From an uncultured Lachnospiraceae bacterium (GTDB taxonomy: Bacteria > Bacillota > Clostridia > Lachnospirales > Lachnospiraceae): a DNA stretch of 64,000 bases. Below are positions 22,384-39,914 of this stretch, piece by piece; the stretch's first letter is position 1; the number at the start of each line of letters is the position of its first letter. The notes beneath the pieces are model-generated. The model was not told where the DNA came from. It searched no databases and saw nothing but the letters and a program-made list of their open reading frames with translations. The position numbers and the translations under genes are program-made. The stretch is from positions 1 to 64,000 of the forward strand of contig CANTEG010000012.1 in assembly GCA_947652735.1 (NCBI GenBank), read 5' to 3'.

Positions 22384-22773
22384 ATGGAAAAAATAACTTC
22401 AACAATTAGATTAAGAATGTCTGCGAAGGATGCACATTATGGCGGTAATTTGGTGGATGGAGCACACATGGTTCATTTGTTTGGAGATGTAGCGACGGAA
22501 TTATTGATAAAAGCGGATGGTGATGAAGGACTATTTTGTGCATATGATGAAGTTACATTTTTGGCACCGGTGTATGCCGGAGATTACATAGAGGCGTATG
22601 GGGAAATCACAGAGTTTGGTAATACATCAAGGAAGATGAAATTTGTGGCAAAAAAGGTGATTGCTGCGAGACCCGACATAAGTCCGTCAGCGGCAGATTT
22701 TTTAGAGGAGCCTATTATTGTCTGTACTGCAAGCGGCACTTGTGTTACGCCTAAGGATTGTAAGCGTAAATAA
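22384..22773 (+). CDS. Beta-aminoacyl-CoA ammonia-lyase-like hotdog protein
   Basis: A 129-residue hotdog-fold protein. The opening [18 protein letters not shown] and the [18 protein letters not shown] segment closely match my recollection of beta-alanyl-CoA:ammonia lyase of Clostridium propionicum and 3-aminobutyryl-CoA ammonia-lyase of lysine fermentation. Those enzymes reversibly add ammonia to acryloyl- or crotonyl-CoA. No other lysine- or alanine-fermentation gene is nearby. Here it sits inside the glycosylation operon, 12 bases after neuD with an AAGGAGG site. Run in the aminating direction it could supply a beta-aminoacyl-CoA for sugar N-acylation. This is inference from context. Confidence 0.78.
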
Positions 22774-23457: not shown

Positions 23458-23514
23458 GGGAGTCAAAAGGTCAGGGATATCAGTATGATTTTAAACCAAG
23501 GAGGGCTGGACTAT

Positions 23515-24294
23515 ATGAAGGTCGTAATTTTAGCGGGCGGTTTTGGAACACGAATATCTGAGGAGTCAGAATATAAGCCAAAGCCTATGATTGAGATAGG
23601 CGGAATGCCCATTTTGTGGCATATTATGAAAGAGTATTCTGCATATGGTTTTCATGAATTTATAATATGTGCAGGGTATAAGCAGCATATGATTAAAAAA
23701 TGGTTTGCAGATTATTTTCTTTATACATCAGATATGACCTTTGATTTCACTCAGGGAAACAAAATGACTATCCACAATCAAAAATCTGAGCCGTGGAAGG
23801 TAACAGTTGTAAATACAGGACTGCATACGATGACTGGAGGACGTATAAAACGAATCAGGTCTTATGTAGGGAATGAAACATTTCTTATGACATACGGAGA
23901 TGGTGTGTGTGATGTTGATGTTTCTAAGCTGGTTGAATTTCATAAGAATCACGGAAAAATTGCAACCCTTACATCAGTTATGATGAAGCAGGAAAAAGGT
24001 GTGCTTGACATCGGTGGAGATAATGCTGTCCGTTCTTTCAGGGAGAAAAGTATAACTGACGGAGCGCCTATCAATGCAGGGTATATGGTTTTAAATCCGG
24101 AAATATTTGATTATATCAAGGATGATAATACTGTCTTTGAGCAGGAACCCTTAAGAAAGCTGGCAGAACAGGGAGAATTAATGTCATATTTACATAGGGG
24201 ATATTGGCAGTGTATGGATACAAAACGTGAAATGGATATATTAGAACGACTATGGGAAAATAATCAGGCACCGTGGAAGAAATGGGAGGATTAA
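23515..24294 (+). CDS. rfbF: Glucose-1-phosphate cytidylyltransferase
   Basis: Makes CDP-glucose from glucose-1-phosphate and CTP, the entry to all CDP-3,6-dideoxyhexoses. The 259-residue protein has VVILAGGFGTRISEESEYKP, KPMIEIGGMPILWHIMKEYS, FILTYGDGVCDVD-like FLMTYGDGVCDVD, and INAGYMVLNPEIFDYI. ATG 23515 is preferred over the in-frame ATG 23485, because AAGGAGG (23500-23506) lies just before it and relatives begin MKVVILAGG. It is four bases from rfbH. Confidence 0.95.
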   Translation: MKVVILAGGFGTRISEESEYKPKPMIEIGGMPILWHIMKEYSAYGFHEFIICAGYKQHMIKKWFADYFLYTSDMTFDFTQGNKMTIHNQKSEPWKVTVVNTGLHTMTGGRIKRIRSYVGNETFLMTYGDGVCDVDVSKLVEFHKNHGKIATLTSVMMKQEKGVLDIGGDNAVRSFREKSITDGAPINAGYMVLNPEIFDYIKDDNTVFEQEPLRKLAEQGELMSYLHRGYWQCMDTKREMDILERLWENNQAPWKKWED

Positions 24295-24297
24295 AGT

Positions 24298-25635
24298 ATG
24301 TTTCAGGACAAGACAGAGCAGCAGGCAAAAAATGAAATATTAAGCTTGGTAAAAGAATATTGTGATACGTTTCACAATCAAAGAAAGTCATTTGAGCCAG
24401 GGGACAGAATTGCATATGCGTCAAGAGTGTATGACTCGGACGAAATGTGCAATTTGGTTGATTCTGCATTAGAGTTTTGGCTTACCTCCGGCAGATATAC
24501 AAATGAATTTGAAAAACAACTTTCCGAATACTTAGGAGTAAAATACTGCTCCCTTGTAAATTCAGGCTCATCTGCCAATTTACTTGCGTTTATGGCACTT
24601 ACATCACCTCTTCTGGGGGAAAGGCAGGTGCGTCCGGGTGATGAAATGATTACGGTAGCGGCAGGATTTCCGACTACGGTTACTCCAGCCATACAATATG
24701 GTGTGGTTCCTGTTTTTATTGATGTCACAATCCCGCAATATAACATGGATGTGAGCATGCTTGAGGCGGCATTGTCAGATAAGACAAAGGTTGTGATGGC
24801 GGCACATACGCTGGGAAATCCATTTGACCTAAAGGCAGTCAAAGCGTTTTGTGACAAGCATGGACTTTGGCTGATTGAGGACAACTGTGATGCACTTGGA
24901 ACAACATATGAGATAGACGGGGAGGTTCGCTATACAGGAGCAATCGGTGACATTGGAACATCGTCATTTTATCCGCCGCACCATATGACAATGGGAGAGG
25001 GTGGTGCCGTGTACACGAATAATCCACTGCTCCATAAATGTGTACGCTCTTTTCGGGACTGGGGCAGGGATTGTGTATGTAATCCGGGACAGGATAATAT
25101 GTGCGGTCATCGGTTTGACGGCAAGTACGGTGAGCTCCCGTCTGGATATGACCATAAATATGTGTATTCCCACTTCGGCTACAATCTGAAAGCAACGGAT
25201 ATGCAGGCTGCTGTCGGATGTGCACAGCTTAAAAAGTTTCCGTCCTTTGTGGAGAAAAGAAAAAAGAATTTTGCACGTTTGATGGATGGATTAAAGGGCT
25301 GTGCGGATAAGCTGATTTTGCCTGAGGCATGTGAAAACTCTGACCCGAGCTGGTTTGGATTTTTGATTACCTGTAAGGAGGGTGTTGACCGTAATGTACT
25401 TGTCCCTTATCTTGAGGAACGGGGAATACAGACTCGTATGTTATTCGCAGGCAATCTGATTAAACATCCTTGCTTTGATCAGATGAGAAAATCAGGAACC
25501 GGGTACCGCACAGTAGGTGAGTTAACAAATACAGACCGTATTATGAAGGATTCTTTTTGGATAGGTGTATATCCGGGAATGACGGATCAGATGATAGATT
25601 ATATGGCGGAAACTATAAAAGAGGCTATTAAGTAG
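24298..25635 (+). CDS. rfbH: CDP-6-deoxy-D-xylo-4-hexulose-3-dehydrase (RfbH/E1)
   Basis: Removes the C3 hydroxyl of CDP-4-keto-6-deoxyglucose using pyridoxamine phosphate and an iron-sulfur cluster. The 445-residue aminotransferase-fold protein has the family hallmark of His in place of the PLP lysine (His228-His229 in SFYPPHHMTMGEGG). A Cys-rich DCVCNPGQDNMCG segment fits the [2Fe-2S] site. The enzyme needs a reductase partner (RfbI/E3 type), and none is encoded in the window. CDP-glucose 4,6-dehydratase, the preceding step, is at 34115. Confidence 0.95.
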   Translation: MFQDKTEQQAKNEILSLVKEYCDTFHNQRKSFEPGDRIAYASRVYDSDEMCNLVDSALEFWLTSGRYTNEFEKQLSEYLGVKYCSLVNSGSSANLLAFMALTSPLLGERQVRPGDEMITVAAGFPTTVTPAIQYGVVPVFIDVTIPQYNMDVSMLEAALSDKTKVVMAAHTLGNPFDLKAVKAFCDKHGLWLIEDNCDALGTTYEIDGEVRYTGAIGDIGTSSFYPPHHMTMGEGGAVYTNNPLLHKCVRSFRDWGRDCVCNPGQDNMCGHRFDGKYGELPSGYDHKYVYSHFGYNLKATDMQAAVGCAQLKKFPSFVEKRKKNFARLMDGLKGCADKLILPEACENSDPSWFGFLITCKEGVDRNVLVPYLEERGIQTRMLFAGNLIKHPCFDQMRKSGTGYRTVGELTNTDRIMKDSFWIGVYPGMTDQMIDYMAETIKEAIK

Positions 25636-25791
25636 TGTCAGCCGTTTGTCATATTTTAATAGAAAGACATGCGAATATATGCTAAACTAGCTGTGTAGGG
25701 CAAAATAGAGTGAGGAGACGCCCATATGGACAACCTAAGTTTATGATGCGGTGATTGCTAACGGGATTGTAGCATGGAATAGGAAATAAAT
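25636..25791 (+). other. Intergenic gap with a possible mini-ORF or gene remnant
   Basis: This 156-base gap is the only sizeable one in the dideoxysugar block. It contains ATG GAC AAC CTA AGT TTA TGA at 25725 behind a GTGAGGAGA-type site (six codons). In another frame it holds a stretch reading YDAVIANGIVAWNRK up to a TAA, which looks like the last codons of a lost gene. A weak TGC-TAAACT element lies at about 25680. The gap may mark the seam where the following four genes joined the rfb genes. Confidence 0.4.
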
Positions 25792-26670
25792 ATGAATAAG
25801 ATAAAAGTTGGAATCATAGGGACGGGAAATATCGGGACAGATATTTTAATGAAATTAAAAAGATCAAGTATATTGGAATGTGGAATTTTTGCCGGTCGCA
25901 ACCCTGATTCAAAGGGAATTCAGCTTGCAAAGAAGATGGGTGTGCCAACATCGACAGAATCAATTCGGGCAATTGAGGAAAATCCAGATTGTTGCGAAAT
26001 AGTATTTGATGCAACTTCAGCAACAGTACACAAGCAAAATGCACCCATTCTGAGAAGACTGAAAAAATTCGCAATTGATTTGACACCGGCACATGTGGGA
26101 AAAATGTGTGTTCCTGTATTGAATTTGGAAGATTGTCTTTTGTTAGATAATGTAAATCTGATTACTTGTGGTGGGCAGGCAACAATCCCTATTGCAAAGG
26201 TTATTAGTGATGTACATCCGGAAACAAAATATATTGAAATTGTTGCAACCATTGCATCTAAGTCAGCAGGTCCGGGGACGAGAAATAATATTGATGAATT
26301 TACACAAGCAACAAGAGATGCCTTGTCAGAGTTTACAGGGATTGAACATACGAAGGCTATTATTGTGTTGAATCCGGCAGAGCCTCCTATTACGATGCAT
26401 AATACGGTATATGCATTGATTGACAACCCGAATATGGATGAAATCAGACGTCGTGTACGCGAGATGGAAGCAAAAATTAAGAAATATGTGCCTGGATATT
26501 CTATTTTGTTAGAACCAAGCTATGAAAATGGACGTGTCACAACGACGCTTCAGGTTGTCGGATTGGGAGATTATTTGCCCAAATACTCGGGTAATTTGGA
26601 TATTATTACTTGTGCTGCCATTGAGATTGCGGAGTATTATGCACGGGAAAAGCTATTAAAGAGGGGATGA
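25792..26670 (+). CDS. dmpF: Acylating acetaldehyde dehydrogenase (DmpF/MhpF type)
   Basis: Interconverts acetaldehyde + CoA + NAD and acetyl-CoA. The 292-residue protein has the NAD-binding VGIIGTGNIGTDIL, the catalytic Cys126 in TCGGQATIPIAKVI, IASKSAGPGTRNNIDEFTQ and the C-terminal VGLGDYLPKYSGNLDIITCAA dimer region. All are intact. In catabolic operons it channels acetaldehyde from the aldolase encoded by the next gene, only four bases downstream here. Its place in a flagellar glycan operon is unusual. It could run in reverse to feed acetaldehyde to the aldolase for synthesis of 4-hydroxy-2-oxovalerate. Confidence 0.93.
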   Translation: MNKIKVGIIGTGNIGTDILMKLKRSSILECGIFAGRNPDSKGIQLAKKMGVPTSTESIRAIEENPDCCEIVFDATSATVHKQNAPILRRLKKFAIDLTPAHVGKMCVPVLNLEDCLLLDNVNLITCGGQATIPIAKVISDVHPETKYIEIVATIASKSAGPGTRNNIDEFTQATRDALSEFTGIEHTKAIIVLNPAEPPITMHNTVYALIDNPNMDEIRRRVREMEAKIKKYVPGYSILLEPSYENGRVTTTLQVVGLGDYLPKYSGNLDIITCAAIEIAEYYAREKLLKRG

Positions 26671-26674
26671 TAGA

Positions 26675-27724
26675 ATGAGTAAAATCAAAATATTTGATTG
26701 TACACTGCGGGACGGAAATCATGCCTTGAAGCATCAATTGACGGAAGATAATATTGAAGACTATTGTCTTGCAATGGATGGAAGTGGCGTTTATACAATT
26801 ATGGTAGGACATGGAAATGGATTAGGTGCTTCTTCTTTGCAGGTAGGACTGGCACTTTTAGATGAACGTACAATGCTGCAGACAGCAAAAAAAAATCTGG
26901 AAAGGACAAAGCTGGGAATATATATGATTCCTGGTTTTGGAACGATTAAAGATAATCTTGAGCCAGCTATACAAGACGGTGTGGAACTGTTTGAGATAGG
27001 ATGCCACTGTACGGAGGCAGATACAACGAGAGAGCATATAGAGTATTTGTGTAATCGTGGTCTTGAAACATATGGGGTTTTGATGATGTATCATATGGCA
27101 TCTCCGGAAAAGATTCTTGAAGAAGCACAAAAGATGCAGTCATACGGAGCAAAGGGTGTAATTTTGATGGACTCAGCAGGTGCCTCGACACCAGAAATGG
27201 TTCAGCGTGTTATTGCTTTGTTGGTAGATAATTTACACGTTCAGGTTGGGTTTCATCCACATAATAATATGGGATTAGCCGTTGGTAATGCATATACAGC
27301 AGTTTGTGAAGGTGCCACAATTATTGACGGAACTTTGCGTGGATTTGGTGCAGGGGCGGGAAATTGTCAACTTGAAGATATTGTTGCGGTACTTGAGAAA
27401 ACGGGGAAACGGACGGGCATTGACTTGTACAAAATGTTAGATGCCAGCGATCAGGTAATGCCTGATATCATGGGAACGGAATTTGGACAGGATTCCATTA
27501 GTATTGTCAGTGGGCAGGCAGGTGTATTTTCAGCATTTAAGCTCCATGTGTTGAATGCGGCAAAGGAATTTGGAGTAGACCCAAGAGATATATTTAAAGA
27601 ACTTGGAAAAAGAAAAGCTGTTGGGGGACAGGAAGATATGATTGTGGAGGTGGCAGAGAAACTCTCTTCTCCAATGGGTTCAAGAAATAGTAATGTAAAT
27701 TATCAGTTGGAATCGTTATTATAG
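26675..27724 (+). CDS. dmpG: 4-hydroxy-2-oxovalerate aldolase (DmpG/MhpE type)
   Basis: Reversible aldol cleavage of 4-hydroxy-2-oxovalerate to pyruvate and acetaldehyde. The 349-residue TIM-barrel protein keeps CTLRDGNHALKHQ (Arg12, Asp13, His16 match the DmpG active site), GHGNGLGASS, HCTEADTTREHIEYL, the metal ligands in GFHPHNNMGLAVGNA, GFGAGAGNCQLE and the C-terminal RKAVGGQEDMIVEVA. It therefore looks like a genuine DmpG rather than a distant HMGL-like protein. It forms a gene pair with dmpF and is 20 bases upstream of the TPP enzyme. A run of nine A at 26887-26895 lies in its coding sequence. Confidence 0.93.
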   Translation: MSKIKIFDCTLRDGNHALKHQLTEDNIEDYCLAMDGSGVYTIMVGHGNGLGASSLQVGLALLDERTMLQTAKKNLERTKLGIYMIPGFGTIKDNLEPAIQDGVELFEIGCHCTEADTTREHIEYLCNRGLETYGVLMMYHMASPEKILEEAQKMQSYGAKGVILMDSAGASTPEMVQRVIALLVDNLHVQVGFHPHNNMGLAVGNAYTAVCEGATIIDGTLRGFGAGAGNCQLEDIVAVLEKTGKRTGIDLYKMLDASDQVMPDIMGTEFGQDSISIVSGQAGVFSAFKLHVLNAAKEFGVDPRDIFKELGKRKAVGGQEDMIVEVAEKLSSPMGSRNSNVNYQLESLL

Positions 27725-27744
27725 ATAAATAGGAGGTTATATTA

Positions 27745-29535
27745 ATGAATGTTTCGGAATTTATTTTTGATTTTTTTTCAAAAAAAGGAATTGACACTGC
27801 ATTTATGGTAACGGGTGGGCAAGCAATGTGGCTGAACGATGCCATCGGAAAAAGTGGAAAGTATAATATTATTTGTACACATCACGAGCAGAGTGCAACT
27901 ATGTCAGCAGATGCTTATGGAAGAATTAAGAATAAACCTGCATTGGCACTTGTGACGGCTGGTCCAGGTAGTGTGAATGCTATGAATGGAGTAGTAGGCG
28001 GATATACAGATTCATCACCAATGATAATTATTTCCGGGCAGGCTGCTCTTTCATTTGTCCAATATCAGGAGGAAACTAAAATACGTCAGCATGGAGTACA
28101 GGGAATAAATATCAAACCATTGGTAGAGAATGTTGTAAAATATTTTATAACAATAGATGATGCACAAAAGACCGAATATTATTTGGAAAAGGCATATCAG
28201 GAAGCCACATCCGGACGTCCGGGACCGGTATGGGTGGATGTTCCGTTGGATATTCAGAATACACAGGTTGACTTGAAATACATGGAAAAATATGATTCTG
28301 AAGAAGAGCCTGAAGGCAGAATTGGTTTATTGCAGGCGGTAAAACATGCATATAAACTTTTAGAGACAGCAAAAAGACCGGTTTTTCTGGTTGGTCAGGG
28401 AGTTAGTCTTGCAGGTGCCAGAGAATTATTTTATGAATATGTTAACAAGGTTAGAATACCAGTAATTACGGCCAGGTTAGGTATTGATCTTATTGAATCA
28501 GATAATGATTTATATGTTGGCAGACCTGGCAACTACGGAGAGCGAGCAGCTAACTTAGCTATTCAAAATGCAGATGTTATTATTTCCGTAGGCTGTCGTT
28601 TGGCATCATCCTTGGTAGGTCATGCTCCGAAAGAATTTGGTAAGCATGCATATATTTATGTGGTTGACATTGATCAGAAGGAATTGGATAAACCAGGTGT
28701 GAAAATTGACTATAAGGTAAAACTTGATTGTAAGGCTTTCTTTGAAGGGATGAGTAGTAAACTGGCAGAATATTTTCTGCCATCATATGAAGAGTGGATT
28801 CAAGTGACTCAAAAATGGAAGAAGAATTATCCTGTATGTGACCCTGAATATAAGAATCAGAAACCCGTAAATTCATATTATTTTATTGATAAATTATCAC
28901 AGCTTGCAAAGAATGATGCTGCGATTATGGTAGATACCGGTTCCTGTTTCCATGTAGCATGTCAAACATGGAAAATAAAAAAGGGACAAAAATATCTGAC
29001 TACAGGCGGGCTTTCCTCTATGGGTTATTGGTGTGCAGGAATTGGGGCATGTATGGCAAATGATAGGAAGGAAACAATCGTAATTACAGGTGATGGCAGC
29101 CTTCAGATGAATCTGCAGGAATTTGCAGTTATCAAGCATAATAATTTGCCAATTAAGACATTTGTACTTAATAACAATGGGTATTTGTTAATACGTCATA
29201 CCCAACGTAATTTTATGGAGGATCGATTTGTTGGTGAGAGTCCTGCTTCAGGCGTTTGGTGTCCAGATACGTTAAGGATTGCTGAGGCATACGGAATTAA
29301 GGCAGTTCGTATAGAATCTGTTGATGAAATAGACCAAAAAATAAAGGAAGTATTAGAGTATAGAGGACCTGTGGTATGTGAGGTTATGACCCCGGAATGG
29401 CAATTATTGATTCCAAGAATTGCCTCAGATAAGCTTCCGGATGGAACACTTCGTTCCAGAGATTATGAGGATATGTTCCCTTACCTTGATCCGGAAGAAT
29501 TGAAAGCTCAGATGGTGGCTGAGAATGAGAAATAA
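27745..29535 (+). CDS. TPP-dependent acetolactate synthase/YerE-like enzyme
   Basis: A 596-residue ThDP enzyme with all three family domains. The N-terminal Pyr domain has the activating Glu48 in CTHHEQSATMSADAYGR. A central domain follows, and the PP domain has GDGSLQMNLQEFAVIKHNN (GDG at 449-451) ending in NN. In Yersinia pseudotuberculosis O:VI, YerE of this family transfers a two-carbon unit from pyruvate onto C4 of CDP-3,6-dideoxy-4-ketoglucose to make yersiniose. Lying between rfb genes and a reductase, this protein probably does the same kind of carbon-branching. True acetolactate synthase is the alternative, but no small subunit or ilv gene is present. Confidence 0.82.
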   Translation: MNVSEFIFDFFSKKGIDTAFMVTGGQAMWLNDAIGKSGKYNIICTHHEQSATMSADAYGRIKNKPALALVTAGPGSVNAMNGVVGGYTDSSPMIIISGQAALSFVQYQEETKIRQHGVQGINIKPLVENVVKYFITIDDAQKTEYYLEKAYQEATSGRPGPVWVDVPLDIQNTQVDLKYMEKYDSEEEPEGRIGLLQAVKHAYKLLETAKRPVFLVGQGVSLAGARELFYEYVNKVRIPVITARLGIDLIESDNDLYVGRPGNYGERAANLAIQNADVIISVGCRLASSLVGHAPKEFGKHAYIYVVDIDQKELDKPGVKIDYKVKLDCKAFFEGMSSKLAEYFLPSYEEWIQVTQKWKKNYPVCDPEYKNQKPVNSYYFIDKLSQLAKNDAAIMVDTGSCFHVACQTWKIKKGQKYLTTGGLSSMGYWCAGIGACMANDRKETIVITGDGSLQMNLQEFAVIKHNNLPIKTFVLNNNGYLLIRHTQRNFMEDRFVGESPASGVWCPDTLRIAEAYGIKAVRIESVDEIDQKIKEVLEYRGPVVCEVMTPEWQLLIPRIASDKLPDGTLRSRDYEDMFPYLDPEELKAQMVAENEK

Positions 29536-30445
29536 GAATACAGGAGTGGTGGTGACGGGTGCAACCAGTATGATAGGGATTGCACTCATTGAAGAATGTG
29601 TAAAAAATAATATCCCTGTAGCTGCTATTATACGTCCACATACAAAACGTATCAGTAGATTACCTAAAACAAATTTAATAACAATATATGAGTCGGAACT
29701 ATGTGAATTGTCAAAAGTTGATATACAATCCGGTTCATGGGATGTGTTTTATCACCTTGCATGGAGTGACACTGGAAAAGATACAAGAGATAATCCGAAT
29801 TTGCAGGAAAAAAATATAAAGTATACATTAGATGCTGTGAATCTTGCAGAAAAGCTGGGCTGTACTACATTTATCGGAGCTGGTTCGCAGGCGGAATATG
29901 GACCGGTGGATGGGGTGATTTTTCCGGATACAAAGACAAATCCTGTTATAGCATATGGAATGGCGAAGGAAGCTTCCCGTATGCTTAGTTCAAGACTGTG
30001 TGATATATATGGGATAAAACATATTTGGGGAAGGATATTCTCTGTTTATGGGCGCTATGATAATGAGGGAACAATGCTTGTGTATGCAATAAAAAAATTA
30101 CTATCAGGGGAAATGGCTGAATTTTCCACAGGAAACCAGCCATGGGATTATCTCAATGAGTATGATGTGGGAAGAGCATTTTATCTGTTAGGCAAAAGTG
30201 AGAATGCAAGAGGAACCTATTGCATTGCCTTTGGCAAAAGCAGGCCTTTAAAGGAATATATTTTGGAATTGGGAGGACAGCTTGGGGCTATTGATAGATT
30301 AATATTTGCTGAGCAAGGGGAAAAAAAAGATGTGGGGATTCAGGCAAATATTGATAAATTGAAAAGGGATACAGGTTTTGTACCAGAGATTTCTTTTTCG
30401 GTTGGAATTCAAAAAATGATTAGTGCTTATAAGGAAAATACATAA
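29525..30445 (+). CDS. NAD(P)-dependent SDR reductase, CDP-sugar type (YerF-like role)
   Basis: A 306-residue extended SDR with VVVTGATSMIGIALIEEC, a Ser-containing FIGAGSQAEYGP, catalytic Tyr144 and Lys148 (AYGMAK), and GRIFSVYGRYDNEGTM. Relatives include CDP-abequose and CDP-paratose synthases, and YerF, which reduces the keto group left after carbon-branching. The start overlaps the preceding TPP gene by 11 bases, so the two are coupled, which favours the YerF role. A run of eight A lies at 30321-30328. The exact product is not knowable from sequence. Confidence 0.82.
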   Translation: MRNKNTGVVVTGATSMIGIALIEECVKNNIPVAAIIRPHTKRISRLPKTNLITIYESELCELSKVDIQSGSWDVFYHLAWSDTGKDTRDNPNLQEKNIKYTLDAVNLAEKLGCTTFIGAGSQAEYGPVDGVIFPDTKTNPVIAYGMAKEASRMLSSRLCDIYGIKHIWGRIFSVYGRYDNEGTMLVYAIKKLLSGEMAEFSTGNQPWDYLNEYDVGRAFYLLGKSENARGTYCIAFGKSRPLKEYILELGGQLGAIDRLIFAEQGEKKDVGIQANIDKLKRDTGFVPEISFSVGIQKMISAYKENT

Positions 30446-30503
30446 AAAGATATGTATTTAATAAAGCTTGTATGACAAGAAATAATAAATATAGGAGTGC
30501 TTT

Positions 30504-33500
30504 ATGGATAATGGTGCAGCTTTAAAATATGAACAGGGAATCGCTCTTTTTGAGGAAGGACACTATGAGGAGGCAGTTGCATGTTTTATTTGTGCATATG
30601 AGAGTGGCTATATGCAGGCTGAAATACTTCAGAACATTTATAATTGTTTTGGCACCCCTAATATTCAGGAATTTCAGGATAATTATAATGTGACCGGTGT
30701 TGAACGATATGGTGTTAAATGTGAGGACACCGTTATTGATTTTATTCCAGTTGCAGAATATACATTTTATATCTGGCATAGAAAACAGGAAAAATTTTTA
30801 GGACTGCTTGATGTCTCGGATATGAAAAAGCCTGTAAGTAAAAGCTTTCAAAGCTTATTTATAACTGATAGATGCAATATTGAAGATATGCTGGATTTGT
30901 TAACACAGAAAAACTGGAGTCATGTATATATATTGCTTCAGGGACAGGAGTCAGAGCTTCTTTCCTTTTGTAAGCTGCCACTTTTTTTCACACAGTATTT
31001 AAAGGATGCCGTATTTTTCAAATCGGAGGAAGAATTAAAGTCATATTTTAAAAATAGGGAAAATTATCTTCCGCATAAAATGTGCACTGATAATGAACAA
31101 TATTATAATGCCTTATTTGATGAAATACATAATGAAAGAATTAACGAAATAGGTGAGGAGAGAAATAATATATTCCTGTCTATTTGTGTTCCAACTTGGA
31201 ACAGAGGTCTGCTGGCACTTGATGCGGTGAAAAATATATTGTTATTGTCATATGATGCCGAAATTGAGGTTGTAGTGTCAAATAATGGTTCAGATAAGAC
31301 AGAAGGTTACGATGAGCTGAAAAAAATCAAAGATTCACGACTTCGCTATTACGAGCTTGACAGCAATAAGGGATTTGCTTATAACTTCAGAAATGTACTG
31401 GGCAAAGCGAAGGGAAAATTTGTGGTGATGTGCAGTGATGAGGATTTATTAAAACTGGATGCATTTCCCCAATATTTAGATTTTCTTAAAGAAAATGACG
31501 ATGTACGTTTTTTAACTACCAGTGGAGACGGACAAGGGTTTAAAAAAGATGAAAGCTGTATTTATGAAGAAGGAAGCTTATCTTATAGTGAAGCAATCAA
31601 TGCAAACTATATTACAGGCGCTACATATAATAACGAATATATGAGGAAAAATCAAATTTTAGAAGCGTATGATGAGATGAAGGAACAGGAATTTATTTTT
31701 CAGTATCCTCATTGTGCACTTGCTGTTATGGCAGTAAAGGGTGGAAAAGCAGGTTTTTGCAATATTAATTTATGGACAGCAAAGGAGCCTGAAGAAGCAC
31801 AGGGTATGTTAGAATATATGAAGCTGGAACATCGTATTGAGCAACAAAATTATGCTATTTCTTTTTTTTCAAAGATTGTTACTGACCAATTAGAGATAAT
31901 GGAGATGATATCTATATGGATGTACAAAACATATCATTTATTGCGAGCAGGTTTTCAAGGTTCGCCTGAAGTGCACATAGAAAGGTACAACTGGTTGGAT
32001 GTATGTTTATTGATTTATGATAGCCAGATAAAGCTGATAAAAGAATATTCGTGGATGCAGGAAGATATAAAAGAAGTGTTAAATGAATTAGCATATAATA
32101 ATTTTATTGAATTTGCTATGGAAAATCCGGTAAGAAGTCTTCAGACAGAACAGGAAGCTCATATTCAGAAAACAATGTCCTTGATTATTCAAGAAAAGAT
32201 AAAACAGGGTGTTTTGCCTAAGGATATTTCAACATTTAAAATTGAACAGACAATAAAAGAATGCATGTCTGAGAAAAGGGAGATTAGGAAAGATATTATG
32301 GATAATGGTGCAACTTTTAAATACGAACAGGGTATCGCTCTTTTTGAGGAAGGACGCTATGAGGAGGCAGTTGCATGTCTCATTGATGCATATGAGAGTG
32401 GCTATATGCAGACCGAAATTATTCAGGATGTTTATAGCTGTTTTGTCACCCCTAATATTCAGGAATTTCAGGATAATTATAATGTGACAAATGTTGAACA
32501 ATATGGTGTTAAATGTGAGGACACCGTTATTGATTTTATTCCTGTTGCGGAATATACATTTTATATTTGGCATAAAAAGCAGAAAAAATTTTTAGGTCTG
32601 ATTGACGTAGCAGATATAAAAAAGCCTGTAAGCAAAAGCTTTCAAAGTTTGTTTATAGAAGATGGATGCAACATCGAAGACACCATAAAATTTCTGACAC
32701 AGAAAAACTGGAGTAATGTCTATGTCCTGCTTAGTGGTGAGGACTCAGAGCTTCTTTCTTTTTGCAAGCTGCCACTGTTTTGGGGACAGTATTTAAAGGA
32801 TGCTGTCTTTTTTAAATCGGAGGAAGAATTAAAGTCTTACTTTCAAAACAGTGAAAATTATCTCCCGAAAGAAATATGTGCAGATGATGTACAATATTAT
32901 AATGATTTATTTGAAGAAATACATAATGAAAGGATTAGAAAAGTAGGGGGGGATAGAAATAATATATTTCTGTCTATTTGTATTCCTACTTGGAACAGGG
33001 GATTGTCGGCGCTTAATGTGGTAAAACATATATTGGCTGTTTCCTATGATGCTGAGCTTGAGGTTGTTGTGTCAAATAACGGTTCCGACAAGACGGAAGG
33101 GTATGATGAGCTGAAACAAATCAAGGATTCCCGTCTGAAATATTATGAGTTCGACAGCAACATGGGTTTTGCCTGTAATTTCAGAACTGTGCTTGGTAAG
33201 GCAAGAGGAAGATTTGCCGTTACGTGCAGTGATGAGGATTTGTTAAATGTAAATGAATTGTCAAATTATCTGGATGTTCTTATTAATAACACAGATGTCA
33301 GATTTTTAACTACAAGTGGAGTTGGACCTAATTTTAATAGCGGGGAAAGTTGTATTTATGAATCGGGATTTGATTCATGCGTTCATGCAATCAATACAAA
33401 TTATATTACAGGTGCAACATTTAATATTCAGTATATGAGAGAAAATAAAATATTTGAAAAATATGATGCGTTAAGTGGACTGGCATTTATCTACTGGTAT

Positions 33501-34067
33501 GCACAGTGTGTTATGGCTGTTGTTACGACAATGGGAGGTAAAGCAGGATTTTCCAATATTGTATTATGGCAGGAGGGCGGAATAGATAATGAAACCGGAA
33601 TGCTAAAATATATGAGGCTGGAAAATAGGATTGAGCAACAAAATGACGCTGTTGAATTTTGTAATATGGTTTTTGGTAATGATATGAAACTGTTTTTATT
33701 AATGATGATTGAGCGCATGAGTAAAACATATTTTTTGTTAAATGTGGGATTTTACTGTTTACCGAAAGAATTTATGAGTGAATATAAATGGCTGGATGTA
33801 TGTCTGGCTATTTATGAAAGTCAGTTAGAATTAATTGATAAGTATTCAGGTGGGCAGGAAGCAATAATAAAAACATTAAAAGGAATCATTTTTGATGAAT
33901 TTAGTGAGTATGTGCTGGATAACCCAGTGAAGGACTATCAGACGGAACAGGAAGGTCTGATACAGGAAAAGGCGGCACTTGTCGTACAGGAAAAAATAAA
34001 GGGTGGGCGAATGCCGAAGGATATTTCTACAAAAGAGATAGAAGAAGCGATAAAAGCATGTTTATAA
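30504..34067 (+). CDS. Tandem-duplicated GT2 glycosyltransferase fusion
   Basis: A 1187-residue protein made of two near-copies (residues 1-598 and 599-1187). Each copy has a short TPR-like opening (KYEQGIALFEEG...YEEAVAC), an unrecognised 130-residue region, then a GT2 domain with SIC(V/I)PTWNRG, VVVSNNGSDKTEGYDEL and the metal-binding CSDEDLL, and a helical tail. The second copy begins MDNGATFKYEQG exactly like the first gene start (MDNGAALKYEQG). This suggests two tandem genes fused by loss of a stop. Both GT2 active sites look intact. A G7 run lies just before the second GT2 domain. It probably adds sugars to the flagellar glycan in the cytoplasm. Confidence 0.85.
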   Translation: MDNGAALKYEQGIALFEEGHYEEAVACFICAYESGYMQAEILQNIYNCFGTPNIQEFQDNYNVTGVERYGVKCEDTVIDFIPVAEYTFYIWHRKQEKFLGLLDVSDMKKPVSKSFQSLFITDRCNIEDMLDLLTQKNWSHVYILLQGQESELLSFCKLPLFFTQYLKDAVFFKSEEELKSYFKNRENYLPHKMCTDNEQYYNALFDEIHNERINEIGEERNNIFLSICVPTWNRGLLALDAVKNILLLSYDAEIEVVVSNNGSDKTEGYDELKKIKDSRLRYYELDSNKGFAYNFRNVLGKAKGKFVVMCSDEDLLKLDAFPQYLDFLKENDDVRFLTTSGDGQGFKKDESCIYEEGSLSYSEAINANYITGATYNNEYMRKNQILEAYDEMKEQEFIFQYPHCALAVMAVKGGKAGFCNINLWTAKEPEEAQGMLEYMKLEHRIEQQNYAISFFSKIVTDQLEIMEMISIWMYKTYHLLRAGFQGSPEVHIERYNWLDVCLLIYDSQIKLIKEYSWMQEDIKEVLNELAYNNFIEFAMENPVRSLQTEQEAHIQKTMSLIIQEKIKQGVLPKDISTFKIEQTIKECMSEKREIRKDIMDNGATFKYEQGIALFEEGRYEEAVACLIDAYESGYMQTEIIQDVYSCFVTPNIQEFQDNYNVTNVEQYGVKCEDTVIDFIPVAEYTFYIWHKKQKKFLGLIDVADIKKPVSKSFQSLFIEDGCNIEDTIKFLTQKNWSNVYVLLSGEDSELLSFCKLPLFWGQYLKDAVFFKSEEELKSYFQNSENYLPKEICADDVQYYNDLFEEIHNERIRKVGGDRNNIFLSICIPTWNRGLSALNVVKHILAVSYDAELEVVVSNNGSDKTEGYDELKQIKDSRLKYYEFDSNMGFACNFRTVLGKARGRFAVTCSDEDLLNVNELSNYLDVLINNTDVRFLTTSGVGPNFNSGESCIYESGFDSCVHAINTNYITGATFNIQYMRENKIFEKYDALSGLAFIYWYAQCVMAVVTTMGGKAGFSNIVLWQEGGIDNETGMLKYMRLENRIEQQNDAVEFCNMVFGNDMKLFLLMMIERMSKTYFLLNVGFYCLPKEFMSEYKWLDVCLAIYESQLELIDKYSGGQEAIIKTLKGIIFDEFSEYVLDNPVKDYQTEQEGLIQEKAALVVQEKIKGGRMPKDISTKEIEEAIKACL
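30504..34067 (+). repeat. Head-to-tail duplication of about 1.79 kb
   Basis: Unit 1 is 30504-32297 and unit 2 is 32298-34067. The DNA is nearly identical over long stretches near the 5' ends (compare 30655-30735 with 32449-32530, both running through the CCTAATATTCAGGAATTTCA segment) and diverges in the 3' thirds. That pattern fits an old duplication with later partial homogenisation or a recent duplication under diversifying selection. Confidence 0.9.
32946..32952 (+). repeat. G7 homopolymer before the second GT2 domain
   Basis: Seven G encode Val-Gly-Gly-Asp just upstream of SICIPTWNRG in copy 2. Copy 1 has no run here. A slip would truncate the second module while leaving the first intact. 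Candidate only. Confidence 0.5.
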
Positions 34068-34114
34068 ATAGTCATCCACATGGGCTGATATTCAATGGAT
34101 TGTGAGGATAAGAA

Positions 34115-35179
34115 ATGGATAATAATTTTTATAAAAATAAAACTATATTGGTGACGGGGCATACAGGGTTTAAGGGTGCATGGATGTGTAAGCTGTTACA
34201 AATGCTTGGAGCAAATGTGATTGGTTATGCATTAAAGGCACCAACGGAGCCTGCTATATTTGATTTGTGTAATATTGCAGACGGTATGGTTTCGGTTTTG
34301 GGAGATGTACGAAACAAAGAGCTGCTTCGTGAAGTGTTTCAACAGTATAAACCTGAAATTGTAATTCACATGGCAGCACAACCCATAGTGAGAGAGTCGT
34401 ATGTCAATCCTGTATATACATATGAGACAAATATAATGGGAACCGTGAACGTTCTGGAAAATGTGCGAATGACACCATCCGTGAAGTCAGTTGTAAATGT
34501 TACAACGGACAAGGTATACAAAAACAGAGAATGGGCTTGGGGATACAGGGAAGACGATGAGTTAAATGGTTATGACCCATATTCAAACTCAAAATCCTGT
34601 TCTGAGCTTGTGACGGGCAGTTATATTAATTCGTTCTTTTTGGAGCGTGATATCGCAGTTTCCACTTGCAGGGCAGGTAATGTTATCGGTGGAGGCGATT
34701 TTGCAGTGGATAGAATTATTCCTGACTGTATACGTGCGGTAGAAAATAACAAAAACATAATCGTGCGAAACCCGTATTCAACACGTCCGTATCAACATGT
34801 GCTTGAACCTGTCGCGGCATATCTTATGGTTGCGAGAAAGCAGTATGACGACAAAAAGCTGGCAGGGAGTTATAATGTAGGACCATCTGATGAGGACTGC
34901 TATACAACAGGTGAGCTTGTTTCCTTATTTTGCGATGAATGGGACAGACACACAGGTACAAAGCCTGTATGGGAAAACCGAAGTGAGGGCGGTCCACATG
35001 AGTCAAACTTCCTGAAGCTTGACTGCTCAAAAATAAGAAATACGTTTGGCTGGAAACCGGTATGGGGTGTAAGACAAGCAATGGAAAAAATTGTTGAGTG
35101 GAATGTAAGTTACCTGAATAAGGGCGATGTAACGGGGTGTATGGAAAAGCAAATTGAGGAATATCTGGCAAATGTATAG
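34115..35179 (+). CDS. rfbG: CDP-glucose 4,6-dehydratase
   Basis: Converts CDP-glucose to CDP-4-keto-6-deoxyglucose, the substrate of RfbH. The 354-residue extended SDR has ILVTGHTGFKGAWMCKLL, VIHMAAQPIVRESYVNP, NVTTDKVYKNREW, and the Tyr/Lys of YDPYSNSKSCSEL, plus RAGNVIGGGDFAVDRIIPDC. These are classical RfbG/DdhB motifs. It lies 8.5 kb from rfbF and rfbH, with the branching genes and the tandem glycosyltransferase between, which marks the limits of the dideoxysugar block. Confidence 0.95.
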   Translation: MDNNFYKNKTILVTGHTGFKGAWMCKLLQMLGANVIGYALKAPTEPAIFDLCNIADGMVSVLGDVRNKELLREVFQQYKPEIVIHMAAQPIVRESYVNPVYTYETNIMGTVNVLENVRMTPSVKSVVNVTTDKVYKNREWAWGYREDDELNGYDPYSNSKSCSELVTGSYINSFFLERDIAVSTCRAGNVIGGGDFAVDRIIPDCIRAVENNKNIIVRNPYSTRPYQHVLEPVAAYLMVARKQYDDKKLAGSYNVGPSDEDCYTTGELVSLFCDEWDRHTGTKPVWENRSEGGPHESNFLKLDCSKIRNTFGWKPVWGVRQAMEKIVEWNVSYLNKGDVTGCMEKQIEEYLANV

Positions 35180-37546: not shown

Positions 37547-38719
37547 ATGGGTATTAATTTGTCTAAAGTAAGCAATAGTATTCGGGGATTGATAAACCGC
37601 AATGATTTATCTTTGCAGGACGTAGATAAAATCAATACACTTATGCAGCAGGTGAATAATATTTTGTTTCACAATCCCACGCTTAAATTTCAGGTGTTCC
37701 ATGATTGTACAATATTAGAAGGACTGGAGGCATTCCGCAGTGAGACAGAATGCATCTTAAAGATTTGGAATGATTTTGAAGTCTTAAGTGCAGGAAATTA
37801 CGCTAATAAACAGTTTGCGGAGATATATGGTTTTTTTAAATATGTAGACCCTGAAATAATTTATGAAAGAGTTGTTTCTCATTTTGAAAGCTTATCAATG
37901 GATATAAAGGAACAATTTGTGCGTGTGCGTAAAGGATACCTTTTCATAAATGAGAAGCTTGATTATAGGGATAACGATTATTCATTAATCAAGCAGCATG
38001 TTGATGTTATGTGTAATAGGGTTGAGGATTATAAGTGGTTATACAACCGTTTGGGTGACTGGCGCTCTAGGGTTATTCTAAATGAAATTATTACCTATTG
38101 GTTCAGATTTGATTTGGATAGACTATGGAATTTGCAGGAAAATATTTTCCCGGAGTACTATGATGTGGATTTAATATCATGTAATTCGGAGGAGGTGTTT
38201 GTTGACCTGGGTGCATATATTGGGGACTCTACCATAAATTTTATTGATGCATTTGGTACCTATAAAAGAATATACAGTTATGAGCTTGCTCCGGGAACTT
38301 ATAAGCAATTGGAGGCAAATTTGTCAGGAATAGCTAATATTACTTTGAAAAATAAGGGTGTGGGTGACAGAAACGAAACAATCTACATAGAGGATACGGA
38401 GCTTGAAGTAGGCAATAGCATTGCAAGGAAGGGGAATTGCCCTGTAGAGCTTGTAACCTTGGATGATGATATCGATGAGCCTGTTACATGTATTAAGATG
38501 GATATTGAGGGGGCAGAAAAAGAGGCTCTTTGTGGTGCCAGAAATCATATAATAAATGAAAAACCAAAACTGCTCATATGTGCATATCATATTCCGGAAG
38601 ATATTTTTGATATTCCAAGAATTATTACGGATATGAGAGATGATTATAAGTTGTATTTGAGATATGATGGGAAACCAGGTTTGATATGGCCATGTGATTA
38701 TGTTTTATATGCGATATAA
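37547..38719 (+). CDS. FkbM-family methyltransferase (tandem copy A)
   Basis: A 390-residue protein. The C-terminal half (about 215-390) is an FkbM-type SAM methyltransferase with VFVDLGAYIGDSTINFI, the conserved acidic YSYELAPGTYKQLEANL, VELVTLDDDIDEPVTCIKMDIEGAEKEAL and AYHIPEDIFDIP. The N-terminal 210 residues are an unrecognised helical region shared with copy B. FkbM enzymes commonly O-methylate sugars, so a methylated residue in the flagellar glycan is inferred. ATG 37547 is preceded by AAAAGGAGAAATC. Confidence 0.87.
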   Translation: MGINLSKVSNSIRGLINRNDLSLQDVDKINTLMQQVNNILFHNPTLKFQVFHDCTILEGLEAFRSETECILKIWNDFEVLSAGNYANKQFAEIYGFFKYVDPEIIYERVVSHFESLSMDIKEQFVRVRKGYLFINEKLDYRDNDYSLIKQHVDVMCNRVEDYKWLYNRLGDWRSRVILNEIITYWFRFDLDRLWNLQENIFPEYYDVDLISCNSEEVFVDLGAYIGDSTINFIDAFGTYKRIYSYELAPGTYKQLEANLSGIANITLKNKGVGDRNETIYIEDTELEVGNSIARKGNCPVELVTLDDDIDEPVTCIKMDIEGAEKEALCGARNHIINEKPKLLICAYHIPEDIFDIPRIITDMRDDYKLYLRYDGKPGLIWPCDYVLYAI

Positions 38720-38744
38720 AACCTAAGAGAGGAGTATGCAGAAC

Positions 38745-39914
38745 ATGAATATTGATTTATCCAAGGTAAGCAGCATGATTCGCGATTTGATAAGCTGTAA
38801 GGAGTTGTCTTTACAGGATATAGATAAGATTCAGAATTTGATGCAGGAAGTGAATAAGGTTTTGTTTCACAATCCCACGCTTAAATTTCAGGCATCCCAT
38901 GATTGTACAACCTTGGAAGGCTTGGAGGCATTCCGCAGTGAGACTGAGTATATTCTAAAGCTGTGGACTGACTATGAAAAATTTAGTGCAGAGAATTATG
39001 TAAACAAGCAGTCCGCGGAAATATATGGATTTTTTAAGTATGTTGACCCTGAAATCATTTGTGAAAGGGTTATATTACATTTTGAAAGCCTGCCAATTGA
39101 GGTAAAAGAACATTTTGTGCGTCTGCTGAAAGGCTATCATTTTATAAATACGAAATTGGATTATAAGGATAAGGATTATTCGCTAATTAAACAACATGTT
39201 GATGCTATGTGTAACAGAGTAGAAGATTATAAATGGTTATATGACCGTTTGGGTGATTGGCGTTCTAAGGCAACATTAAATGAGATTATTATTTATTGGT
39301 TTCGGTTTGATTTGGACAGATTGTGGAGTTTGCAGGAAGGTATTTTCCCTGAGTATTATGACTTGGATTTGCTGACATGCAGCTCTGAGGAAGTGTTTGT
39401 TGACTGTGGTGCATATACAGGAGATTCTGCCATAGAGTTTATAAATGCGTATGATATGTATAAAAAAATATATTGTTATGAGCTGACCCCGGAAATTTAT
39501 AAGCAGTTGGAGGCAAATTTGCAGGGGGCTGATAACATTAGTCTTAGAAATAAAGGTGTGAGTAACAAAAAAGAGACCATTTATATAGAGGATACCGTGG
39601 ACGCAGGCAACAGTATTGTAAGGAAAGGGAGCTGTCCCGTAGAGCTTGTAACCTTGGATGATGATATTGATGAGCCTGTAACCTGTATTAAAATGGATGT
39701 TGAGGGTGCGGAAAAGGATGCACTTTGCGGTGCAAGAAACCATATCGTGAATGAAAAACCAAAGCTGCTCATATCTGCATATCATATTCCGGAAGATATT
39801 TTTGATATTCCGAAACTGATTACAGATATGAGAGATGATTATAAATTATATTTGCGATATGACGGAAAACCTGGATTAATTTGGCCTTGCGATTATGTTT
39901 TATATGCATTATGA
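38745..39914 (+). CDS. FkbM-family methyltransferase (tandem copy B)
   Basis: A 389-residue close paralogue of copy A over its whole length, including the N-terminal helical region (NPTLKFQASHDCTTLEGLEAFRSE in place of copy A's QVFHDCTILEG). SAM motif VFVDCGAYTGDSAIEFI; end AYHIPEDIFDIPKLITDM. ATG 38745 is preferred over ATG 38736, because GAGAGGAG at 38727-38734 would touch the upstream ATG, and the chosen start matches copy A (MxIxLSKVS). The pair arose by tandem duplication. They may methylate different positions. Confidence 0.87.
   Translation: MNIDLSKVSSMIRDLISCKELSLQDIDKIQNLMQEVNKVLFHNPTLKFQASHDCTTLEGLEAFRSETEYILKLWTDYEKFSAENYVNKQSAEIYGFFKYVDPEIICERVILHFESLPIEVKEHFVRLLKGYHFINTKLDYKDKDYSLIKQHVDAMCNRVEDYKWLYDRLGDWRSKATLNEIIIYWFRFDLDRLWSLQEGIFPEYYDLDLLTCSSEEVFVDCGAYTGDSAIEFINAYDMYKKIYCYELTPEIYKQLEANLQGADNISLRNKGVSNKKETIYIEDTVDAGNSIVRKGSCPVELVTLDDDIDEPVTCIKMDVEGAEKDALCGARNHIVNEKPKLLISAYHIPEDIFDIPKLITDMRDDYKLYLRYDGKPGLIWPCDYVLYAL

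Follow-up and report, generated by a model that had tools for sequence, protein, structure and literature searches.

The operon at positions 23515 to 35179 of a 64,000-nucleotide stretch of DNA from an uncultured Lachnospiraceae bacterium (contig CANTEG010000012.1; hereafter the window, to which all positions refer) probably directs the synthesis of a cytidine diphosphate (CDP)-activated 3,6-dideoxy-4-C-(1,3-dihydroxybutyl)hexose, a ten-carbon sugar of the erwiniose type, with the dehydrogenase and aldolase pair DmpFG running in reverse. RfbF, RfbG, and RfbH would generate CDP-3,6-dideoxy-4-ketoglucose. DmpF would convert acetyl-coenzyme A (acetyl-CoA) to acetaldehyde, and DmpG would combine acetaldehyde with pyruvate to form 4-hydroxy-2-oxopentanoate (4-hydroxy-2-oxovalerate), probably in the (4R) configuration. 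A thiamine diphosphate (ThDP)-dependent enzyme, here called the ligase, would decarboxylate this 2-oxo acid and add the 3-hydroxybutanoyl unit to the C4 ketone, after which a short-chain dehydrogenase/reductase (SDR) would reduce the new branch ketone to give the 1,3-dihydroxybutyl group. The finished sugar would be attached to a glycan of the cell surface, with flagellin as the most likely carrier.

The gene identities, the intact catalytic residues, the consistent pairing of this type of DmpG with this ligase clade across the loci read, and the altered stereo residues of DmpG could be read directly from the sequences. Family identities were assigned with NCBIfam models and their curated cut-offs, and domains with Pfam. 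Five window proteins scored above the NCBIfam cut-offs, including the glucose-1-phosphate cytidylyltransferase RfbF (23515..24294, with an alternative start at 23485; TIGR02623, 371 bits, cut-off 300), the CDP-4-keto-6-deoxyglucose 3-dehydrase (E1) RfbH (24298..25635; NF011936, 725 bits, cut-off 423), a DmpF-like acylating acetaldehyde dehydrogenase (25792..26670; TIGR03215, 392 bits, cut-off 282), a DmpG-like pyruvate aldolase of the 4-hydroxy-2-oxovalerate type (26675..27724; TIGR03217, 364 bits, cut-off 286), and the CDP-glucose 4,6-dehydratase RfbG (34115..35179; TIGR02622, 441 bits, cut-off 278). The YerE/ErwE-like ligase, for which transfer of 3-hydroxybutanoyl to C4 is proposed, was encoded at 27745..29535, and its gene overlapped by 11 bp that of the SDR proposed to reduce the branch ketone (29525..30445; Pfam Epimerase PF01370, 94 bits). 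All eight genes were located on the + strand, with gaps from rfbF to rfbG of 3, 156, 4, 20, -11, 58, and 47 bp. A preliminary description of this DNA had placed rfbF, rfbH, and rfbG around a YerE-like ThDP enzyme and an SDR, with DmpF and DmpG directly before the former. The family matches agreed with these identities and the gene order was borne out, whereas the alternative rfbF start and a glycosyltransferase gene between the SDR gene and rfbG were added as corrections. DmpF retained Cys126 in the window and in 19/19 aligned relatives. DmpG retained Arg12, Asp13, His16, and the metal-binding His194 and His196, and contained the communication domain PF07836, consistent with the earlier claim that both enzymes are apparently intact.

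The main evidence for the proposed donor was the co-occurrence of dmpFG with the ligase. A single scan of genome contigs with the window ligase recovered 19 loci that were 57-98% identical (L and G numbers are locus and genome labels of the survey). The dmpG gene was located upstream of the ligase gene in all 19, with 13-132 bp between the match ends in 18 of them, and a single SDR gene stood between the two in L012. The dmpF gene was visible in 18 loci (L018 starts inside dmpG), and an rfbH homologue was found on the same locus in 16, including a partial one in L016; the exceptions were L014 and the short contigs L018 and L022. All of the 21 dmpFG loci except L014 and L022, hence 19, had an SDR-type gene, from a cluster that also holds rfbG, no more than three genes away from the ligase. 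Record names included Lachnospiraceae, Clostridium, Selenomonadales, Phycisphaerae, Fibrobacter, Gastranaerophilales, and Synergistales, and the ligase matches at 96-98% identity came from records named Lachnospiraceae. The carriers included two cultured strains, Lachnotalea glycerini DSM 28816 (L011) and Clostridium gasigenes DSM 12272 (L017). The recurrence of the dmpG-ligase pairing in 19/19 loci is more than chance.

Controls that started from the other genes pointed the same way. Among 291 clostridial genomes, nine contained a dmpG above the cut-off, including the genome of the window, which has one; no ligase or rfb homologue was found in the eight other loci (3-20 kb read), whose DmpG was 41-47% identical. 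In Lachnospirales, 27 dmpG genes above the cut-off were present in 26 of 392 genomes. No ligase was located beside the classical dmpG genes (0/24 loci, 2.6-4 kb read), whereas the clade-type dmpG had the ligase next door in 3/3 cases (the window, G1066, and L084 of G876); G876 carries one dmpG of each type. Of 299 genomes from the phylum, 17 contained rfbH; besides the locus of the window, this gave 17 loci from 16 genomes. None of these 17 contained dmpFG, although eight of them harbored a more distant ligase (33-40% identity, 13-20 kb read). In L063, about 8 kb separated the ligase gene from rfbH. A weak DmpG-superfamily match (26%) in L059 was not counted as dmpG. The Phycisphaerae locus L015 comes from genome G580; among 246 genomes of its phylum, eight matched the ligase, and dmpFG was found in none of seven further loci of 3.7-20 kb. 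A survey of the co-occurrence of dmpFG, yerE, and rfbH had been proposed in the preliminary description as a check, and its outcome favored the reading given there.

Phylogenetic analysis of the ligases (quick maximum likelihood, 97 rows, without L022, whose genes are in pieces) placed 20 of the 21 dmpFG-linked ligases in one clade, with a Shimodaira-Hasegawa approximate likelihood ratio test (SH-aLRT) value of 100. The dmpFG label required two changes on this tree, compared with a mean of 19.4 for shuffled labels. The remaining dmpFG-linked ligase, L088, was 39% identical, contained Ser and Ala at the two pocket positions discussed below, and grouped with ligases that have other neighbors; it is apparently a second case in which this type of dmpFG is paired with a branching ligase. 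The rows for 8rph, 5ahk, and L115 were on long branches, and their placement is uncertain.

The second line of evidence came from the aldolase. The window DmpG was 39% identical to DmpG, the orthologue of BphI, and 38-47% identical to the classical sequences with which it was compared. The Leu/Tyr pair that gives the (4S) product in BphI was replaced by Tyr83 and Phe285 in the window. Across the clade, DmpG Leu88 (BphI Leu87) was changed to Tyr or Phe in all 20 rows that cover the position, and Tyr291 (BphI Tyr290) was changed to Phe in 20 and to Val in one of 21 rows. Leu and Tyr were retained in 33/33 classical sequences (eight clostridial, 23 from Lachnospirales, MhpE, and DmpG). The fragmented L022 was not included in this alignment, L018 has no N-terminus, and the window, L005, and L020 are near-copies. 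Among 88 columns that were invariant in ten classical DmpG sequences, 12 were lost throughout the clade, including both stereo positions; by our own arithmetic, the chance that two named columns both fall among these 12 is about 1.7%. The matching carbon of erwiniose is taken here to be R, although a name with stereodescriptors was not found in the literature searched. In BphI, the Y290F change relaxes the specificity, and the L87N/Y290F or L87W/Y290F changes reverse it from (4S) to (4R), according to the accessible parts of PMC3962088 and PMC4012138. Because the same two positions are replaced here, the product of the clade DmpG is probably (4R)-4-hydroxy-2-oxopentanoate, a prediction that goes beyond the preliminary description.

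Other DmpG relatives also differed at these positions. L170 from Lachnospirales, which is above the cut-off, contained Val and Tyr at the stereo positions, and L173-L176, which are below it, contained Phe and His, and their short loci lacked a ligase. Bulk at the first position is therefore not, on its own, linked to the ligase. The catalytic His was replaced by Tyr (as in L170) or Asn in these five relatives, which probably perform another chemistry.

The ligase contained three ThDP-enzyme domains with the catalytic Glu48 and the GDG motif at 449-451, and its position beside the CDP-3,6-dideoxyhexose genes rfbF, rfbH, and rfbG agrees with a YerE-like enzyme. Its best match among solved structures was 8rph (403 bits), followed by 5ahk (246 bits), which bears the database title acetolactate synthase II and is presumably the YerE of a Pseudomonas. 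The 8rph structure is that of JanthE, a YerE-like ligase that is reported to accept 4-hydroxy-2-oxovalerate together with benzaldehyde (PMC12188165, in the part available). Val118 of the window ligase occupies the position of a Phe in acetohydroxyacid synthase (AHAS). At this position (JanthE Val121), the clade contained Val in 13 rows and Ile in seven, whereas Phe was found in 5ahk, both acetolactate synthase (ALS) rows, and yeast AHAS; Val or Ile, as in the promiscuous JanthE, is a weaker supporting point. Ser289 occupies the position of an AHAS Arg (R380 in yeast) that presumably binds the acceptor carboxylate. The 20 clade rows had Ser (13), Ala (six), or Pro (one) at this position and 8rph had Pro, whereas both ALS rows, yeast AHAS, and 5ahk had Arg. 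The pocket is compatible with a donor larger than pyruvate but is no proof of one.

Several observations weigh against the proposed pathway or reduce the force of its evidence. All 19 loci were recovered through their resemblance to a single ligase, have a common descent, and are not independent; most are contigs of metagenome bins, in which mis-binning is possible and some labels may be wrong. In 72 other ligases, the Val118 position contained Asp in 37, Ile in 10, and Phe in only four, and the Ser289 position retained Arg in 41, as also in 5ahk; given this wide spread, neither pocket residue alone tells the donor or the family. The (4R) prediction carries over data from BphI mutants, in which the first position is Trp or Asn, and the window has Tyr there. 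The window SDR is divergent. Furthermore, a search of the genome of the window for an E3 reductase of the RfbI/AscD type gave none, as its two PF00175 matches (L145 and L146) look like NfnA and PyrK; an electron donor other than E3 is possible for RfbH. Finally, DmpF-type enzymes may also take propionyl-CoA, which would lead to a five-carbon branch.

A sugar with such a longer branch would arise if DmpF reduced propionyl-CoA, or another acyl-CoA, and DmpG then formed 4-hydroxy-2-oxohexanoate as the donor. The change of DmpG Phe139 to Val or Ile in the clade may enlarge the pocket, and ErwE accepts donors from 4-hydroxy-2-oxobutanoate to -hexanoate (PMC12247030, in the part available). On the other hand, the position of BphI Leu89 (DmpG L90) contained only Ile or Val in the clade and not Ala, the change that is reported to favor longer aldehydes in BphI, and this possibility was considered unlikely. 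About equally improbable is a yersiniose-type pathway, in which the ligase would add a two-carbon branch from pyruvate while DmpFG supplied or recycled pyruvate or acetyl-CoA locally. The remaining gene set matches yersiniose synthesis, and YerE prefers pyruvate (PMC12247030, same part). However, the ligase clade was never found without dmpG in 19 loci, and dmpFG was absent from all of the other RfbH loci, including the eight of 17 with a distant ligase. Cleavage by DmpG would need a source of 4-hydroxy-2-oxopentanoate, and the genome of the window had no match to PF01557, presumably the fold of the MhpD hydratase, which makes the aldolase substrate in the meta-cleavage pathway; no such gene is there to feed the catabolic direction. 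The changed stereo residues of DmpG are also unexpected for a plain supplier of pyruvate. The preliminary description had rated an aldolase that makes pyruvate locally as the weaker alternative, and it fits these loci poorly.

A plain acetolactate synthase accompanied by a stray catabolic dmpFG pair is very improbable. The ligase matched the family model TIGR00118 at 364 bits and did not reach its curated cut-off, which is 538 bits. It had Ser in place of the AHAS Arg, its clade was set apart from the two ALS rows (SH-aLRT 100), and dmpG was co-located in 19/19 loci; the acetolactate synthase reading was rejected on its score, its place on the tree, and its dmpG neighborhood. A search of plasmids with the ligase returned 40 records at E up to 1e-60, none of which reached 60% identity (best 31%), and those with annotation at the matched region were labelled acetolactate synthase. 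Stray aromatic catabolism was likewise rejected, as the genome has a single DmpG above the cut-off and no PF01557 match. A pathway in which DmpFG runs in reverse, 4-hydroxy-2-oxovalerate is the donor, and a four-carbon branch is formed at C4, as originally proposed, is the best-supported reading by inference; it is favored by the co-occurrence and has a precedent in ErwE (PMC12247030, in the part available). The pairing with dmpFG suggests a 4-hydroxy-2-oxo acid rather than pyruvate as the donor of the ligase.

The closest known system is the erwiniose pathway. ErwE of Pectobacterium atrosepticum joins 4-hydroxy-2-oxobutanoate, -pentanoate, or -hexanoate to CDP-4-keto-3,6-dideoxyglucose to form erwiniose, a ten-carbon branched sugar (PMC12247030, PMC8657720, both in part). 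According to the accessible part of PMC12247030, a 2025 review, ErwE uses neither pyruvate nor acetaldehyde, and its activity was proven in vitro with an analogue in place of the natural acceptor. The donor class, and the acceptor through an analogue, are thus established in the literature for a relative. Both systems share a ThDP ligase, the same acceptor, and probably a ten-carbon product, a likeness drawn from the published reaction. The present system differs in its flagellar island and in its occurrence, which covers a Lachnospiraceae relative and records that bear the names of other phyla. It may differ further in having DmpFG, with altered stereo residues, as the likely makers of the donor. 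In the yersiniose pathway, the branch ketone is also reduced. The yersiniose A pathway of Yersinia pseudotuberculosis has the CDP-3,6-dideoxyhexose route and ThDP-dependent branching at C4 in common with the window, but YerE takes pyruvate (preferred) or 2-oxobutyrate (PMC12247030, same part), whereas the present clade travels with dmpFG. Caryophyllose of Mycobacterium marinum (MMAR_2332) is a 3,6-dideoxy-4-C-branched xylo-hexose with a 1,3,4,5-tetrahydroxyhexyl branch (PMC5706390, in part). It shares a branch without a hydroxyl group at the second carbon, the pattern expected from a 4-hydroxy-2-oxo-acid donor, but its branch has six carbons and it belongs to a mycobacterial lipooligosaccharide. 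Compared with the pairs DmpFG, BphI-BphJ, and MhpEF, the catalytic and metal-binding residues and the adjacent two-gene arrangement were retained, whereas Leu88 and Tyr291 were replaced and a reverse, biosynthetic direction is proposed.

A literature search for a link between dmpFG and branched sugars found nothing, but the primary ErwE paper and the gene-cluster survey were outside the search, and an earlier publication is possible. The reaction is less new than the preliminary description suggested, as its donor chemistry is already published for ErwE and erwiniose (PMC12247030, in the part available). What is likely new is an erwiniose-type pathway with a likely and probably stereo-inverted DmpFG donor module, its location in a flagellar island, and its presence in distantly named records.

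The operon is located within a flagellar island that contains FliD, FliS, and flagellin at 54-2512, five PF01973 proteins, which are presumably Maf-type glycosyltransferases, and genes for pseudaminic and neuraminic acid. From this neighborhood, flagellin is the most likely target of the sugar. A possible transferase is the glycosyltransferase at 30504..34067 (1,187 amino acids; TIGR04440 and GT2 matches), which is an in-frame tandem duplication with two tetratricopeptide repeat (TPR) plus GT2 halves identical at 385/599 aligned positions. In the relative L005, the match to this protein covered the region of the second half only. RfbH contained Cys197, Cys259, Cys261, and Cys269, with a C-x-C-x7-C motif at 259-269, and a PPHHM motif with His where the lysine for pyridoxal phosphate (PLP) is expected. 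E1 dehydrases contain iron-sulfur cysteines and a His in place of the PLP lysine, and RfbH agrees with them in both features. The glycan island also harbored a 3-aminobutyryl-CoA ammonia lyase homologue at 22384-22773 (NF052388, 194 bits, cut-off 160), which may supply an unusual N-acyl group, and a tandem pair of FkbM-type methyltransferases at 37547-39914, identical at 302/393 aligned positions.

Ligases of this family were also associated with other genes. In Lachnospirales, 62 of 392 genomes reached E 1e-130 at 64 places, and 60 loci were compared after leaving out that of the window, G113 (already included), and G1154 and G243 (genus already sampled). The dmpFG clade scored 1197 and 994 bits and, after a gap, the rest scored at most 647 bits, including L088 at 595. 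Neighbors were classed within three genes only, and contig ends truncate many of the loci; on this basis, two loci had dmpFG, 16 an HMGL-type aldolase, six a NeuB-type gene, and 35 none of these, and L125 remained unclassed. Outside the dmpFG loci, no dmpF was found in this set or in the seven loci from the phylum of G580. The only DmpG matches there, in 14 loci, were weak (22-31%); they were not scored as dmpG and were mostly read as HMGL-type aldolases. In L090, L091, L103, L109, L110, L112, L114, and L121, the ligase stood beside an HMGL-type aldolase of about 500-550 amino acids from the DmpG superfamily and a HAD phosphatase, and eight further loci had the aldolase without the phosphatase; these neighbors suggest other 2-oxo-acid donors. 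In L118, L131, L065, L086, and L143, the ligases were accompanied by differing sets of NeuB-like, SIS, and HAD genes, which would fit a 3-deoxy-2-ulosonic acid as the donor, although some NeuB genes, such as that of L136 with neuC alongside, may be ordinary nonulosonic acid genes. L078 (G590:C45) contained two sugar-branching ligase genes side by side.

There is an even chance that ThDP-dependent sugar-branching ligases are modular, with sub-clades that each carry their own 2-oxo-acid cassette (DmpFG; an HMGL-type aldolase, half of the time with HAD; or NeuB-like genes, sometimes with SIS/HAD) and make many undescribed long-branched surface sugars, and that the two-residue change in DmpG is a natural counterpart of the engineered (4S)-to-(4R) switch of BphI. 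In the proposed pathway, an aldehyde-channelling enzyme pair known from catabolism would serve the synthesis of branched sugars, and the dmpF-dmpG-ligase arrangement would provide a genetic handle for predicting which bacteria produce erwiniose-type sugars with ten carbons. Evolution may also have arrived at the stereochemical switch that protein engineers designed, and the range of long-branched surface sugars may be wider than known, with most of it still to be mapped.

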